From IMG/VR virus record IMGVR_UViG_3300012919_000016, positions 1 to 40,641 of that record: a DNA stretch of 40,641 nt; one strand, 5' to 3'. Each line of letters begins with the position of its first letter. Within the stretch, counting starts at the first letter, position 1. The translations under genes and the position numbers were made by a program. The stretch is from a virus. Of the stretch, positions 1-10,761 are shown in pieces. Under the pieces are notes generated by a model. It had not been told where the DNA came from. It made no database searches and saw only the letters and a program-made list of their open reading frames with translations.

Positions 1-131
1 ATTGTTGCCTTATTATCAGCGCGAATCTCTTTATAGTTTTTGATGATTTCAGTGGAAAGCTCCTTGTCCTTAAGTAAGTTATCAAGGAAGCCTTTGTTGA
101 CCACCGTAGTGGTTTCGTTTGAATCAGACAT
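1..131 (-). CDS. N-terminal fragment of unknown leftward (early?) protein
   Basis: The first 43 codons of a leftward gene cut by the left window edge. The ATG (complement of 129-131) is preceded by an AGGA ribosome-binding site about 7 bases away, and the frame is open to position 1. The visible protein starts MSDSNETTTVVNKGF and continues with a helical, charged stretch. I recognise no domain. It is the first gene leftward of the T-depleted block and diverges from the late module, so it is probably the first gene of the early/replication module. Function is unknown. That it is a real gene is fairly secure from the start site and codon pattern. Confidence 0.7.
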   Translation of the reverse strand, partial: MSDSNETTTVVNKGFLDNLLKDKELSTEIIKNYKEIRADNKAT

Positions 132-229
132 ATCATTTCCTTTCATATCTGAGTTGGCACAGGATTGAGCCAGGAGAGCCGCCCCCCACTGAAGGGAGAG
201 GGAGGAGGAGGGCGACTCACCAAGCCCAA

Positions 230-243
230 CCCGCAAGCGCGGG
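230..243. other. Small GC hairpin inside T-depleted block
   Basis: CCCGC (230-234) can pair with GCGGG (239-243) across the four-base loop AAGC. It sits just before the G-run cluster. Five GC pairs could be chance in such GC-rich DNA, so its role is open. Confidence 0.35.
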
Positions 244-270
244 AAGGGACAAGGGACTAGAAGGGGAGGG
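241..270 (+). other. Canonical G-quadruplex motif
   Basis: The + strand has five G-runs of at least three, at 241-243, 246-248, 253-255, 263-266 and 268-270, separated by 2, 4, 7 and 1 bases. This satisfies the usual G3+N1-7 rule for an intramolecular G-quadruplex. Another G-rich cluster lies at 194-211. For leftward transcription the G-rich strand would be the template strand. Folding in vivo is not shown. Confidence 0.5.
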
Positions 271-300
271 CCTCAACCGCAACGGCAGGGGCAGACACGG

Positions 301-447
301 ACTCGGAGAGACCGCAGAAGAACCCAGCACACACCCGACCAGACCGACCAGGACAGCCAAGGAGAGAAACGGGAGAACCCGAAGCCACCGCAGCACGAAC
401 CGCAGAAGCCAGAGCAGGACGAGCCGACTCGGGGAGACCCGCAAAGC
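301..447 (+). repeat. Diverged short direct repeat (301-320 and 427-447)
   Basis: The roughly 20-base element beginning ACTCGG(A/G)GAGACC occurs at 301-320 and again at 427-447, with one substitution and small indels. The spacing between starts is 126 bases. A third, shorter match to ACTCGG begins at 469. Two of the ten T residues in the block fall at the same position of this repeat (303 and 429). Confidence 0.45.
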
Positions 448-720
448 GGCACACGAAAGAAGAACCGCACTCGGAACGCACCACAAGGGAACCCCGAGCG
501 TCACGCGGACCCGACCACGAGGCCGAGACCAAGACAACACCAGAGGCCACGGGGAGGAAAGAAGAAGCCAACCCCGACACACCGCCGAAAGAGAAAGAAG
601 AAGGAACAAAAGAAAAAGAAGCCACAACAGCACCTCAAAAGGCCAAAGAAAAACCCACGCGCACGGGCCGAGCGAACGCGAAGGGGGGAGCAAACCACAG
701 CGGGAGTACCCCAACACCAA

Positions 721-785
721 TCTATACCTTTTTGTTCTGTCTATAAGTCCCTATAAGAAATTCTTTTATTATATAGAGGATAGTC
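721..785. promoter_or_regulatory. AT-rich strip with tandem CTATAAG, probable late promoter region
   Basis: Composition switches abruptly from the T-free block to AT-rich DNA at 721. CTATAAG occurs twice at a 10-base interval (741-747 and 751-757), followed by an AT-rich stretch and an AGAGGA ribosome-binding site at 775-780. By position this should hold the promoter for the late rightward module, and perhaps a leftward one. I find no convincing sigma-70 pair on either strand. The CTATAAG pair resembles the core of T7-type promoters (CACTATAGG) only loosely, so recognition by the phage polymerase is a guess. Confidence 0.35.
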
Positions 786-3591: not shown

Positions 3592-3611
3592 ACATATAGA
3601 GGACGATATGT
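3592..3611 (+). promoter_or_regulatory. Stem-loop presenting the glutaredoxin ribosome-binding site
   Basis: ACATAT (3592-3597) can pair with ATATGT (3606-3611), leaving the Shine-Dalgarno AGAGGA in the eight-base loop and placing the ATG (3608-3610) in the stem. A six-pair AT-rich stem is weak, so it may melt readily. Such a layout can tune initiation, but this could be coincidence. Confidence 0.3.
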
Positions 3612-3853
3612 ACACAGTATACACAAAAGACACATGCGGCTATTGCGAGAAAGCCGAAAAGTTACTCCAAGATAATTATCTTGAGTATGAGCTTATCGAT
3701 GTGAATTCAGACCCCGAAACTCTAAAAATGTTTAAGAGTCGGAAATGGTCTACGGTTCCCCAAATTATGAAGGGGAATTTACACATCGGTGGGTACGAAC
3801 AACTCAAGCTACATCTTACTAACGGTTATTATCAATCAGTTTATTCGGAGTAA
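3608..3853 (+). CDS. grx: Glutaredoxin
   Basis: An 81-residue thioredoxin-fold oxidoreductase. The dithiol active site is C10-G-Y-C13. The cis-proline loop TVPQI has P51, and HIGGYEQL (about 61-68) is the glutathione-binding GG turn. Length is normal for a small glutaredoxin. It ends seven bases before the ribonucleotide reductase gene, which implies that it or its relatives reduce the reductase's C-terminal cysteines after each turnover. Both act in the cytoplasm. The family call is firm; pairing with the reductase is inference from adjacency and known biochemistry. Confidence 0.93.
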   Translation: MYTVYTKDTCGYCEKAEKLLQDNYLEYELIDVNSDPETLKMFKSRKWSTVPQIMKGNLHIGGYEQLKLHLTNGYYQSVYSE

Positions 3854-3859
3854 TTAAAA

Positions 3860-5722
3860 ATGGACACTTATCAAAAATTTATTCACCTTTCTCGTTATGC
3901 TCGTTGGGATGAGGAAACAGAAAAAAGAGAAACTTGGGAAGAAACGGTAACACGTTATCTTGATTATTGGGGTGATAAACTAAGTGAAGATGAATATGCA
4001 GAACTTTATAAAGCTATTCATGAACTTGAAGTTATGCCTTCTATGCGTTGTTTATGGAGTGCGGGTGTAGCTCTCGATAAAAATAATGTTGCTGGCTATA
4101 ACTGTAGTTTTGTTGCCGTTGATTCCCCTCGTGCTTTTGATGAAGCTCTTTTTATTCTTGCATCTGGGACAGGTGTGGGTTTTTCTGTAGAACAAAAATT
4201 TACTAATAAACTTCCTATTGTTAACGATACATTTACAGAAACAGAGAGGATTATTAGTGTCGCAGATAGTAAAGAAGGATGGGCAAAAGCAATCCGAAAA
4301 CAAATTGCCGACTTATATCTTGGTCAAGTACACCAGTGGGACTACTCAAAAGTACGCCCCGCAGGAGCTAGGCTTAAAACAATGGGAGGACGCGCATCGG
4401 GTCCTGAACCTCTTATGGACCTCATGGGTTTCATCGATCGAACTTTTAAAGGAGCATCAGGACGAAAGCTAAATCCTATCGAATGTCACGATATTATGTG
4501 TAAGATTGGTGAGATTATTGTTGTTGGCGGTGTACGCCGTTCCGCGATGATTTCGCTTTCCGATCTCGGAGATCCACAAGTTCGTGATGCTAAATCAGGA
4601 AATTGGTGGGAACATTATGGGCATCGCGCATTAGCTAATAATAGTGCGTGTTACGAAGTTAAACCAGATATGGAGACATTTTTAGATGAATGGACAGCAC
4701 TTGTTAAAAGTAAATCTGGTGAGCGGGGTATATTCAGCCGTATCGCCGCCCAAGCGAAAGCCGCAGAAAACGGTCGTCGAGACGCAGAGTGGGAATTCGG
4801 AACAAACCCCTGCTCAGAAATTATCCTCCGACCAAATCAGTTTTGCAACCTCTCAGAGGTCGTAGCTCGTGAAAAAGATACAAAAGCTTCTCTTAAGCGT
4901 AAAGTACGGTTGGCAACAATTCTTGGGACATTACAAGCAACCCTTACAGACCTTCCCTACTTGCGAGCAGTGTGGAAACGTAATACTACCGAAGAATCTT
5001 TGCTCGGAGTGTCTCTCACTGGAATCCAAGATTCAATAGTATTACAAAATCCTGATCCAAAATTCTTAAAGGAATTAAAAGATGTTGCAATCGAAACAAA
5101 CGCTGAATGGGCTAAAAAGTTGGGAATACCTCAAAGTGCAGCTATTACTTGCGTTAAGCCATCGGGTACTGTTTCGCAGCTTGTCAATTCTGCATCAGGT
5201 ATACACGGGCGTTTTGCTCCGTACTATATTCGTACTGTACGACAAGATAACAAAGACCCTATTACAAATTTTTTAAAAGATGTAGGAGTACCTAACGAAC
5301 CTTGTGCAATGAAACCAAATAGCACAACTATCTTTAGTTTTCCAATTAAATCTCCAGAAAATGCAGTATTAGCTAATGAACAAGGAGCTATTGAACAACT
5401 TGAAAATTGGAAAAACTACGCAGTAAACTGGTGTGAACATAAACCATCTGTTACTATTTATGTTAAAGATAATGAGTGGATGGAAGTTGGCAGTTGGGTT
5501 TACAATCATTTCGACCTTTGCAGTGGCATATCATTTTTGCCATATAGTGATCATACATACGCTCAAGCACCATATCAAGATTGTTCAGAAGAAGATTATG
5601 AAAAAGCATTTTCAGATTTTCCATCACAAATTAATTTTGCTAATCTTGTAGCATATGAGAAAGAAGATAATACTGAAGGCGCACAAACTTTAGCTTGTAC
5701 AGCAGGAGCGTGTGAGGTATAA
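3860..5722 (+). CDS. nrdJ: Class II (adenosylcobalamin-dependent) ribonucleotide reductase, monomeric type
   Basis: 620 residues, reducing ribonucleotides to deoxyribonucleotides for phage DNA synthesis. It resembles the monomeric Lactobacillus leichmannii-type reductase. C82 (AGYNCSF) and C329 (QFCNLSE) would form the substrate-reducing disulfide pair. N316-P-C318-S-E320 is the radical-site loop with the thiyl cysteine, and LACTAGACEV at the C-terminus has the C613/C618 shuttle pair with the same CxxxxC spacing. The FILASGTGVGFSVE block (about 98-111) is also typical. It is shorter than the about 740-residue bacterial enzyme. Cobalamin dependence means the host must make or import B12. Codons in 4260-5040 are clearly GC-richer than on either side. 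Confidence 0.93.
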   Translation: MDTYQKFIHLSRYARWDEETEKRETWEETVTRYLDYWGDKLSEDEYAELYKAIHELEVMPSMRCLWSAGVALDKNNVAGYNCSFVAVDSPRAFDEALFILASGTGVGFSVEQKFTNKLPIVNDTFTETERIISVADSKEGWAKAIRKQIADLYLGQVHQWDYSKVRPAGARLKTMGGRASGPEPLMDLMGFIDRTFKGASGRKLNPIECHDIMCKIGEIIVVGGVRRSAMISLSDLGDPQVRDAKSGNWWEHYGHRALANNSACYEVKPDMETFLDEWTALVKSKSGERGIFSRIAAQAKAAENGRRDAEWEFGTNPCSEIILRPNQFCNLSEVVAREKDTKASLKRKVRLATILGTLQATLTDLPYLRAVWKRNTTEESLLGVSLTGIQDSIVLQNPDPKFLKELKDVAIETNAEWAKKLGIPQSAAITCVKPSGTVSQLVNSASGIHGRFAPYYIRTVRQDNKDPITNFLKDVGVPNEPCAMKPNSTTIFSFPIKSPENAVLANEQGAIEQLENWKNYAVNWCEHKPSVTIYVKDNEWMEVGSWVYNHFDLCSGISFLPYSDHTYAQAPYQDCSEEDYEKAFSDFPSQINFANLVAYEKEDNTEGAQTLACTAGACEV

Positions 5723-8631: not shown

Positions 8632-10761
8632 ATGGGCAAATCAAGAGACATGTCGAATATTTTTAATTCGACTCCTTCAAATGTAGATGCTACTAAACTA
8701 GATGGTCAAGATGGTTCTTACTATCTTGATTATGGTAACTTTACTAATACTCCACCATTAGGTACAGGTCCTACAGGCCCTCAAGGGCCTACAGGTCCCA
8801 CAGGACCTACAGGGCCTACAGGTCCTACTGGCAATACTGGTCCAGCTGGCCCAACAGGTCCACAAGGTCCAACAGGACCCATAGGTAATACAGGATCTCC
8901 AGGAACTTCAGGCGCACCAGGTCAAGATGGAGCAAATGGTGCGACTGGTCCTACGGGTCCTACAGGCGCAATTGGTCAAACAGGCGCATCAGGTGGTGTA
9001 ACGTTTGAGTATCTTTATTCAAATATAACCTCCGATGCAGATCCTGGGACTTCATATTTTCGTTTCGATACTACAAGTTTGTTTAGCGCAACAAAAGTTT
9101 ATATTGCAGATACAGATTTAAATAGTGCAGATAATCAAGCATTTTTTAGGACGCTTGATGATAGTACTAGTACTATGAAAGGCCATATTCGTTTTGTAGA
9201 ATCTGGAAATACAGCAGAATTTTTGGTTTTCGAATTAAATTCGATTACTGAAAATACAGGTTACTTTACGTTAAATGTTTCTTTTGTTAGCGGCACAGCT
9301 AATGCTTTTAATAACAATTACAAAACTCTTTTTACATTTGATAGGACGGGTGATAAAGGAGATACAGGTGCAACAGGACCCACAGGACCTGCAAGCACAG
9401 TAGCTGGTCCAACTGGACCTACGGGACCGCAAGGCCCAACAGGACCTACTGGACCTGCAGGGGCAGATAGTACTGTAGCTGGCCCAACAGGACCTACAGG
9501 CCCTTCTGGACCCGCAGGATCTCCAGGATCTGCAGGATCAACAGGACCTACTGGACCTACAGGCGCACAAGGGCCTACTGGACCTCAAGGTGCAACTGGA
9601 TCGGGTATAACATTTAAAGGTAACGTAGCTACTACTAGTGATTTACCGTCGAGTCCTACACCAGCTAATGGTGATGCTTATATTGTTCAAGCAGACGATA
9701 GTCTTCATGTATATGATGGTTCGTCATTTGTTAGTGGTGGCTCAATTCAAGGACCAACGGGACCAACTGGTCCTACTGGACCTACAGGACCTAGTGGCCC
9801 TTCTGGTTCAGATGGTGCTGCTGGCTCAACAGGGCCTACGGGACCTTCTGGACCCGCAGGATCTACAGGACCCGCAGGACCGACAGGACCTAGTGGACCT
9901 ACTGGACCTACGGGACCCACAGGACCCGCAGGGCCTGATGGTGCAGATAGCACAGTAGCAGGACCTACAGGACCTACTGGACCTACAGGGCCTACTGGAC
10001 CTCCTGGGCCTGCAGCATCTGATGCAGGAACTTTAGATGGTTTAGATAGTACTCAATTTTTAAGAAGTGATGCAGTTGATGAAATTGCGGCAGATGGCGT
10101 TCCACTATCAATAAACAGCACAAACAGCAATTCCGCGAAATTAGGATTAGAAGATAATGGCACAGTGCGCGGTTACATTGGTGCAACATCAACTATTTGT
10201 TTTCAGGCTCTTCACGATGGCGCGGCCTCAAGATTTCAAATATCGCAAAATGGTGCTGAAGTAAAACAAGTTTCTACAGGAAGTTCAGCGTATTATAGAT
10301 TTAACCAAAACGCTACAGACAGAAATTATGTCTATCAAAGTTCTGCTAATGAAATTGGTTTTCTATCAACAACTGGTGGTTGGATTTTAAAAGTTGATAA
10401 CAGTGGCAATACTACAGCTACAGGAAATGTAACAGCTTATTCTGATATTCGATTAAAAAAAGATATTGAGCCAATTGAAAATGCACTTGAGCGCGTAAAC
10501 AAATTACAAGGTGTTGAATACACTCGTAATAGTACTGGTGAACGCGAAATGGGTTTTGTAGCGCAAGACGTTATAGAACACGAATCAACACTTGTTGATA
10601 TAATTGATGCATCTACAGACCAAACAGATGAAGCGTTTAGTGATCTTCATGTAATGAAATATCAAAATACAGTTGCTTTACTTGTTGAAGCTATTAAAGA
10701 ATTACAAAATGAAGTAAAAGAATCAAAATCAGGATGTTGTTGTCATGACTCTACAAACTAG
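8632..10761 (+). CDS. Collagen-like tail fibre with S74 intramolecular chaperone
   Basis: 709 residues. The N-terminus has the fibre motif [15 protein letters not shown] (about 22-36). Three Gly-X-Y collagen-like stretches (about 44-123, 240-325 and 373-462), mostly GPT units, are separated by globular inserts, including one starting [20 protein letters not shown]. After a second fibre motif ([15 protein letters not shown]) comes a beta domain, then a C-terminal peptidase S74 domain starting at SDIRLKKDI (about 604). The Ser and Lys there would form the self-cleaving dyad that releases the chaperone after trimer folding, and a coiled coil ends the protein. It probably recognises the host. A 2-oxoglutarate oxygenase gene lies just downstream. 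Confidence 0.9.
8764..9000 (+). repeat. Collagen-like GPT-coding repeat, block 1
   Basis: Nine-base units of the type GGxCCxACx coding Gly-Pro-Thr and variants, varying at third positions. Imperfect repetition of this kind favours slippage and recombination, which would change fibre length. Confidence 0.85.
9349..9606 (+). repeat. Collagen-like GPT-coding repeat, block 2
   Basis: A second run of Gly-X-Y codons in the same fibre gene. It includes the unit '[13 protein letters not shown]', which recurs almost unchanged in block 3, so blocks 2 and 3 appear to share a duplication. Confidence 0.85.
9747..10020 (+). repeat. Collagen-like GPT-coding repeat, block 3
   Basis: The third Gly-X-Y run, the most regular of the three, ending in PPGPAAS before the fibre beta domain. 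Because GGxCCx reads similarly on both strands, the complementary strand also shows a long collagen-like frame, which is a shadow. Confidence 0.85.

Follow-up and report, generated by a model that had tools for sequence, protein, structure and literature searches.

An adenine-depleted first early unit in a marine podovirus and a guanine-depleted counterpart in its sister clade

The window, i.e., the whole 40,641-nucleotide stretch of IMG/VR virus record IMGVR_UViG_3300012919_000016 analyzed here, is an incomplete contig that terminates within an RNA polymerase gene. At its early/late junction, where the original prediction had also placed it, lies a block (positions 167 to 720) in which one base is nearly missing from the plus strand. 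A recount of the 554 bases gave 198 A, 173 C, 173 G, and 10 T, in agreement with the ten T's first reported. The block contains T-free runs of 125 (304 to 428), 133 (502 to 634), and 71 (636 to 706) bases, and a scan of the whole window detected no T-free run of 60 bases or more elsewhere. Given the T frequency of the window (0.296), the log10 probability of 10 or fewer T's in 554 bases is approximately -67, and a 120-base non-T pattern gave 20 matches in the window versus none in 100 shuffles; chance is excluded, as had been claimed for natural drift. T-to-C mutation, one of the causes initially proposed, and deamination-type mutation were rejected on the even content of A, C, and G, which means that T was not replaced by C.

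We assigned the block (167 to 720, minus strand) as the first leftward, early transcription unit of the phage, consisting of a leader, a small gene, and 3' hairpins. Adenine has been eliminated from the mRNA sense of this unit, that is, T from the plus strand, wherever it is dispensable. An alignment of 20 loci revealed a conserved, putative start or promoter-like motif at 718 to 733 on the minus strand (AAAAAGGTATAGATTG; TAAAAAAGATGTG in relatives), and A depletion sets in directly downstream of it. The same alignment delineated an A-free leader (626 to 717 or 720, minus strand) with conserved GGGTACYC and CCCCCC motifs upstream of the gene, which supports the earlier suggestion that a leftward message would have an adenine-free leader. 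The gene itself, hidden in the block, is predicted at 257 to 625 (minus strand; GTG start, TAG stop, 122 amino acids). All ten T's of the block could be placed: one (707) falls inside the conserved GTAC motif of the leader, one (635) in the Shine-Dalgarno sequence GAGG (633 to 636, minus strand), one (501) in an Asp codon, four (471, 429, 303, and 273) in Glu codons, one (258) in the stop codon, and two (217 and 190) in the hairpin region. Among the sense codons of the gene, A occurs solely in one GAC and four GAG; no acidic residue has an A-free codon. The 3' RNA hairpins (167 to 247, minus strand; -46.2 kcal/mol, z -4.6) combine a small GC stem with a long GAGUCGCCCUCC/GGGGGGCGGCUC stem; they are possibly the 3' end or terminator of the unit, and similar hairpins are present in loci L129 and L142. 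An Rfam search of the block gave no match above the gathering score. The next leftward gene (1 to 131, minus strand), of which the window holds only the 5' part (MSDSNETTTVV...), was identified by orthology to a gene of L013, in which the ortholog comes straight after a T-free leader.

Relatives were collected by a terminase search and represent loci of one marine podovirus family, mostly from metagenome contigs. The sole cultured member found was Roseobacter phage CRP-7, with a terminase identity of 61%; roseophages of this type resemble the window in having the same terminase, a T7-like RNA polymerase, a divergent architecture, and a T-free block. The CRP-7 block is 700 bases long with 11 T's and lies at the same divergent junction; the scan upstream of terL reached 2.5 kb, and this block, located farther out, was added by hand. 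Of 111 distinct loci with upstream sequence, 57 were strongly depleted of one base upstream of the terminase; the missing plus-strand base was T at 34 loci, C at 21, G at 2, and A at none. The T-depleted block occupies the same place in approximately 34 T-type relatives from independent metagenomes, and the C-free blocks of a sister clade, corresponding to G-free mRNA, lie at the same junction. In a terminase tree (FastTree, 108 rows), the T-type and C-type loci formed two clades, and a third clade was blockless. In L002, L012, and L013, which are most closely related to the window, only a T-free leader of 85 to 95 nucleotides is retained. The two G-depleted loci, L173 and L213, look like tandem repeats and are not counted as a third class; their G-poor repeats (ACACTCTCTATTAAA and CCTATCCTTA) lie near the same junction, at 66 to 335 and 1 to 215, respectively. 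BLAST searches against phages returned no homologue of the window block and, for the CRP-7 block, only the phage itself and chance matches.

The block had been regarded as noncoding by every sign except its open frames, with the sound caution that a T-free strand is free of stop codons in all frames and that ORFs alone are uninformative. However, the block is coding on the minus strand, as shown by a profile HMM, codon-position patterns in relatives, and an AlphaFold model. An HMM built from only the five homologues of ordinary composition detected the window frame at 260 to 634 (minus strand) with an E value of 1.2e-7 among 546 window frames, whereas the best of 4,000 shuffled decoys reached 0.69. 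With an HMM of all family members except the window, the window gene was detected at 3.4e-16 and the best of 4,000 shuffled decoys at 0.018. The window gene thus matches a profile built without it, and members of the small-protein family to which it belongs occupy the first leftward gene position(s) beside the terL-side junction. Substitutions at codon positions 1, 2, and 3 numbered 11, 6, and 36 between L129 and L142, 3, 2, and 21 between L164 and L174, and 3, 3, and 25 between L145 and L158; this third-position excess between relatives shows that the frame is coding and that purifying selection acts on its protein. The leftward frame of T-type loci specifies small proteins that belong to a single family, in which A-free and ordinary homologues can be aligned (e.g., L123 and L139) with changes of K to R, I to V or L, T to S, and Y to F. 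The leftward proteins of C-type loci consist almost wholly of F, L, I, Y, S, P, T, H, Q, N, and K, the residues with G-free codons, and hhalign detected no homology of these G-free proteins to the A-free ones. AlphaFold modeled the window protein with a pLDDT of 86.4 and a pTM of 0.77, and Foldseek matched the model to an OB-like barrel below significance (best E value, 0.023; TM score, 0.46 to 0.52 to OB-fold chains); the model of the G-free family was poor (pLDDT, 52). Searches of Pfam and PHROGs with the block protein returned no function.

The CRP-7 record differs from our reading in that the block is annotated there as a rightward gene, gp72 (MK613349, 57271 to 57966; L027, 141 to 836), on the T-free strand, which is the wrong strand. 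The homologous gene lies opposite, at approximately 116 to 499 of L027 on the minus strand. Coding on the plus strand was ruled out by this homologous frame, and gp72 is probably an annotation artifact of a stop-free strand.

At 19 T-type loci the T fraction fell at the right edge from 0.25 to 0.011 and was back to about 0.33 by 1.2 kb, and at 9 C-type loci the C fraction fell from 0.19 to 0.007, recovering to about 0.15 within 1 kb. The same course was observed at four-fold synonymous sites, other codon positions, and noncoding sites. The depletion tracks the leftward mRNA strand, ends shortly past the last gene of the unit in L128, L148, and L143, and does not depend on a neighboring C, G, or T (ratios of 0.19 to 0.26 on either side). 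The leaders of ten T-type first units contain 15 A's in 2,016 bases. Besides, 8 of 10 genes end with TAA, a stop codon with two A's, which implies that single A's cost little and counts against the explanation favored below. Avoidance of stop codons was rejected as a cause, since TAA, TAG, and TGA contain no C, and yet the sister clade omits C. T-type block pairs are mostly 55 to 85% identical, below the terminase identity, and substitutions touching the missing base accounted for 101 of 1,809 in T blocks and 58 of 830 in C blocks, the pairs being partly nonindependent. That so few changes involve the missing base despite this divergence shows that composition is held while sequence moves; the comparison of sequence with composition in relatives, proposed with the original prediction, thus came out in favor of composition.

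We consider the best explanation to be that selection during transcription disfavors one template base in the first message, albeit tentatively and with somewhat less than an even chance of being correct. The force at work concerns one base of the leftward message or of its template, lies close to the start, and adds a little cost with every base, whatever the context. The sharp edge of depletion at the presumed start motif, followed by a fade over approximately 1 to 1.2 kb, is consistent with it, as is the position of all ten residual A's in the Shine-Dalgarno sequence, the stop codon, acidic codons, the leader motif, or the hairpin region. At the onset of infection, RNA polymerase would start at about position 720 and proceed leftward with the plus strand as template, and at every template T (or C, for the sister clade) there would be a slight chance, regardless of context, that the polymerase stalls or the chain ends. 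A leader and first gene composed without the hazardous base could be synthesized immediately, and later genes could be ordinary if the obstacle were gone by then, possibly through the first product. The obstacle may be a modified base in the phage template; alternatively, a nucleotide, ATP or (in the C clade) GTP, may be in short supply or poisoned, for instance through chain-terminating analogues. As to the former, a bulky T modification halts conventional DNA polymerases (PMC9023294). CRP-7 DNA could be sequenced, which would argue against a very bulky modification. As to the latter, viperins produce chain-terminating nucleotide analogues; to our knowledge, an ATP analogue is absent from known viperin products. 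Among the ideas offered initially, a leader that withstands some base-specific process comes nearest to the evidence. A further reading is that of a natural "three-letter" transcription unit, in which the first early gene omits one nucleotide to pass a base-specific block of expression at the onset of infection, and in which the avoided mRNA letter switched from A to G between sister clades as the block changed; we judge this to be not far short of an even chance.

A modified template base was examined through the enzymes encoded in the two clades. Nine strong matches to the thymidylate synthase family (PF00303) were found among 37 contigs, all in the C clade and with E values below 1e-58, and PSD stood in place of PFN in those C-clade proteins whose sequence was read (L253/L254, L259, L267, L272, and L276 to L279). 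The PFN-to-PSD replacement is the Asn-to-Asp change typical of dCMP hydroxymethylases. At the sequence level, the C clade thus carries the dCMP hydroxymethylase-type gene of a modified-cytosine phage, which suggests that the enzyme is a dCMP hydroxymethylase and that the genomes of these uncultured marine podoviruses are cytosine modified. Counting against the modified-base version, L203 and L224 of the C clade possess the hydroxymethylase-like gene but no C-free block. In the T clade, PF00303 had no match in any of 13 T-block contigs, including one of 57.9 kb, nor in L116 or L002; it was not among the early Pfam matches of CRP-7, and no T-modifying enzyme was found. A nucleoside deoxyribosyltransferase-like gene was confined to the T clade, and a search for the TET/JBP family gave no match, although its control was also unmatched. 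The association of enzyme and block is weak evidence because the two missing-base states are just two clades. The family resembles phages with modified T or C (T4 with hmC, SP-15, phiW-14, and YerA41) in that one genome base is special, with a hydroxymethylase-like enzyme (PSD) in the C-free clade, whereas the T clade of the window shows no T-modifying pathway. We know of no description of base avoidance in the template strand of one gene in such phages.

Alternatively, a host or phage nuclease may cleave RNA at one base only, A here and G in the sister clade; the first message, by avoiding that base, would outlast the other messages, which are destroyed. RNases with single-base specificity exist in general, and such a nuclease would account for depletion that tracks the mRNA strand, affects untranslated and coding regions alike, and differs in the missing base between clades. 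Most mRNA toxins, however, recognize motifs of two or more bases, and endonucleases of this kind are excluded by the context independence. The gradient and the extension beyond the stop codon are not specifically predicted, and no nuclease candidate was identified; we regard this explanation as unlikely. A DNA-level element (an origin, a primase primer-free zone, or a packaging or terminal site) that needs a T- or C-free strand, with the gene as a passenger, is distinctly unlikely. Its location at the only divergent junction, adjoining the terminase side, the strand-specific composition with a sharp edge, and the CRP-7 record, which terminates there too, would fit such an element; nevertheless, primase avoidance would deplete trinucleotides rather than one base in all contexts, and the unit ends with gene and hairpin in L128, L148, and L143. 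A packaging or origin role, put forward in the original prediction, found no specific support.

Diversity-generating retroelements (DGRs) convert template adenines into random bases (PMC3240598), and repeated rounds of an adenine-specific, DGR-like mutator on the transcript of the unit might have worn away all nonessential A's, leaving the other three bases about equal with a gradient from one edge. The unit shares with DGRs of the BPP-1 type an adenine specificity within a transcribed phage gene. This origin is nonetheless improbable: a reverse transcriptase (PF00078) was found in none of 28 contigs, including complete CRP-7, the untranslated regions are also affected, the sister clade omits G rather than A, purifying selection acts on the encoded protein, and no template/variable repeat pair was noticed in passing. 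Still more doubtful is that selection acts not on the base itself but on translation or RNA structure, to prevent internal starts or to keep the leader unstructured. A-free and G-free RNAs both lack AUG and a full Shine-Dalgarno sequence, by chance, but folding of the leader is not reduced below that of shuffles (z +1.4), four-fold synonymous sites and the 3' region are depleted to the same degree, and all stop codons remain on C-free plus strands. Finally, an assembly artifact or a private insert of a single contig, a concern raised at the outset, is refuted by the blocks of the isolate and of the independent contigs, and its probability is negligible.

A literature search, mainly of open-access sources, retrieved no description of such a unit, i.e., of a gene with untranslated flanks that evolves in a three-base alphabet and whose protein is rebuilt from the amino acids still possible. 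Laboratory G-less and U-less transcription cassettes are similar in that the transcript can be made without one nucleotide, but they are designed tools, whereas the present unit is natural, evolving, and protein coding. The unit implies that one nucleotide in the first message of the phage is under a strong force, for which the three-letter composition is a marker readable from sequence alone. If the cause is a host defense or a modified genome, the missing letter tells which base is concerned, and the isolate CRP-7 makes the unit directly testable.

On the rightward side, comparison with relatives revealed a late promoter-like motif at 745 to 766 (plus strand; TCCCTATAAGAAATT), the form of which is conserved (CCCTTATAGGAAAATTT) upstream of the rightward module of the relatives; the motif in the window and in relatives reads CCCTTATAGG/CCCTATAAGAA. 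In some C-clade genomes, this motif lies within a dyad (GGAGACGTTTAAATTTAAATGTCCCC) that recurs elsewhere in the genome. Upstream of the terminase, the window encodes a 62-amino-acid protein (892 to 1080; KSKVNESGNYTKP...) with at least 580 relatives in viral contigs. Furthermore, the rightward structural module contains putative glutaredoxin-like and ribonucleotide reductase-like genes (3608 to 5722), as read from the sequence. The window also encodes a collagen-like GPTGPT repeat protein (8632 to 10761), which by eye has an endosialidase chaperone-like end and is probably a tail fiber.
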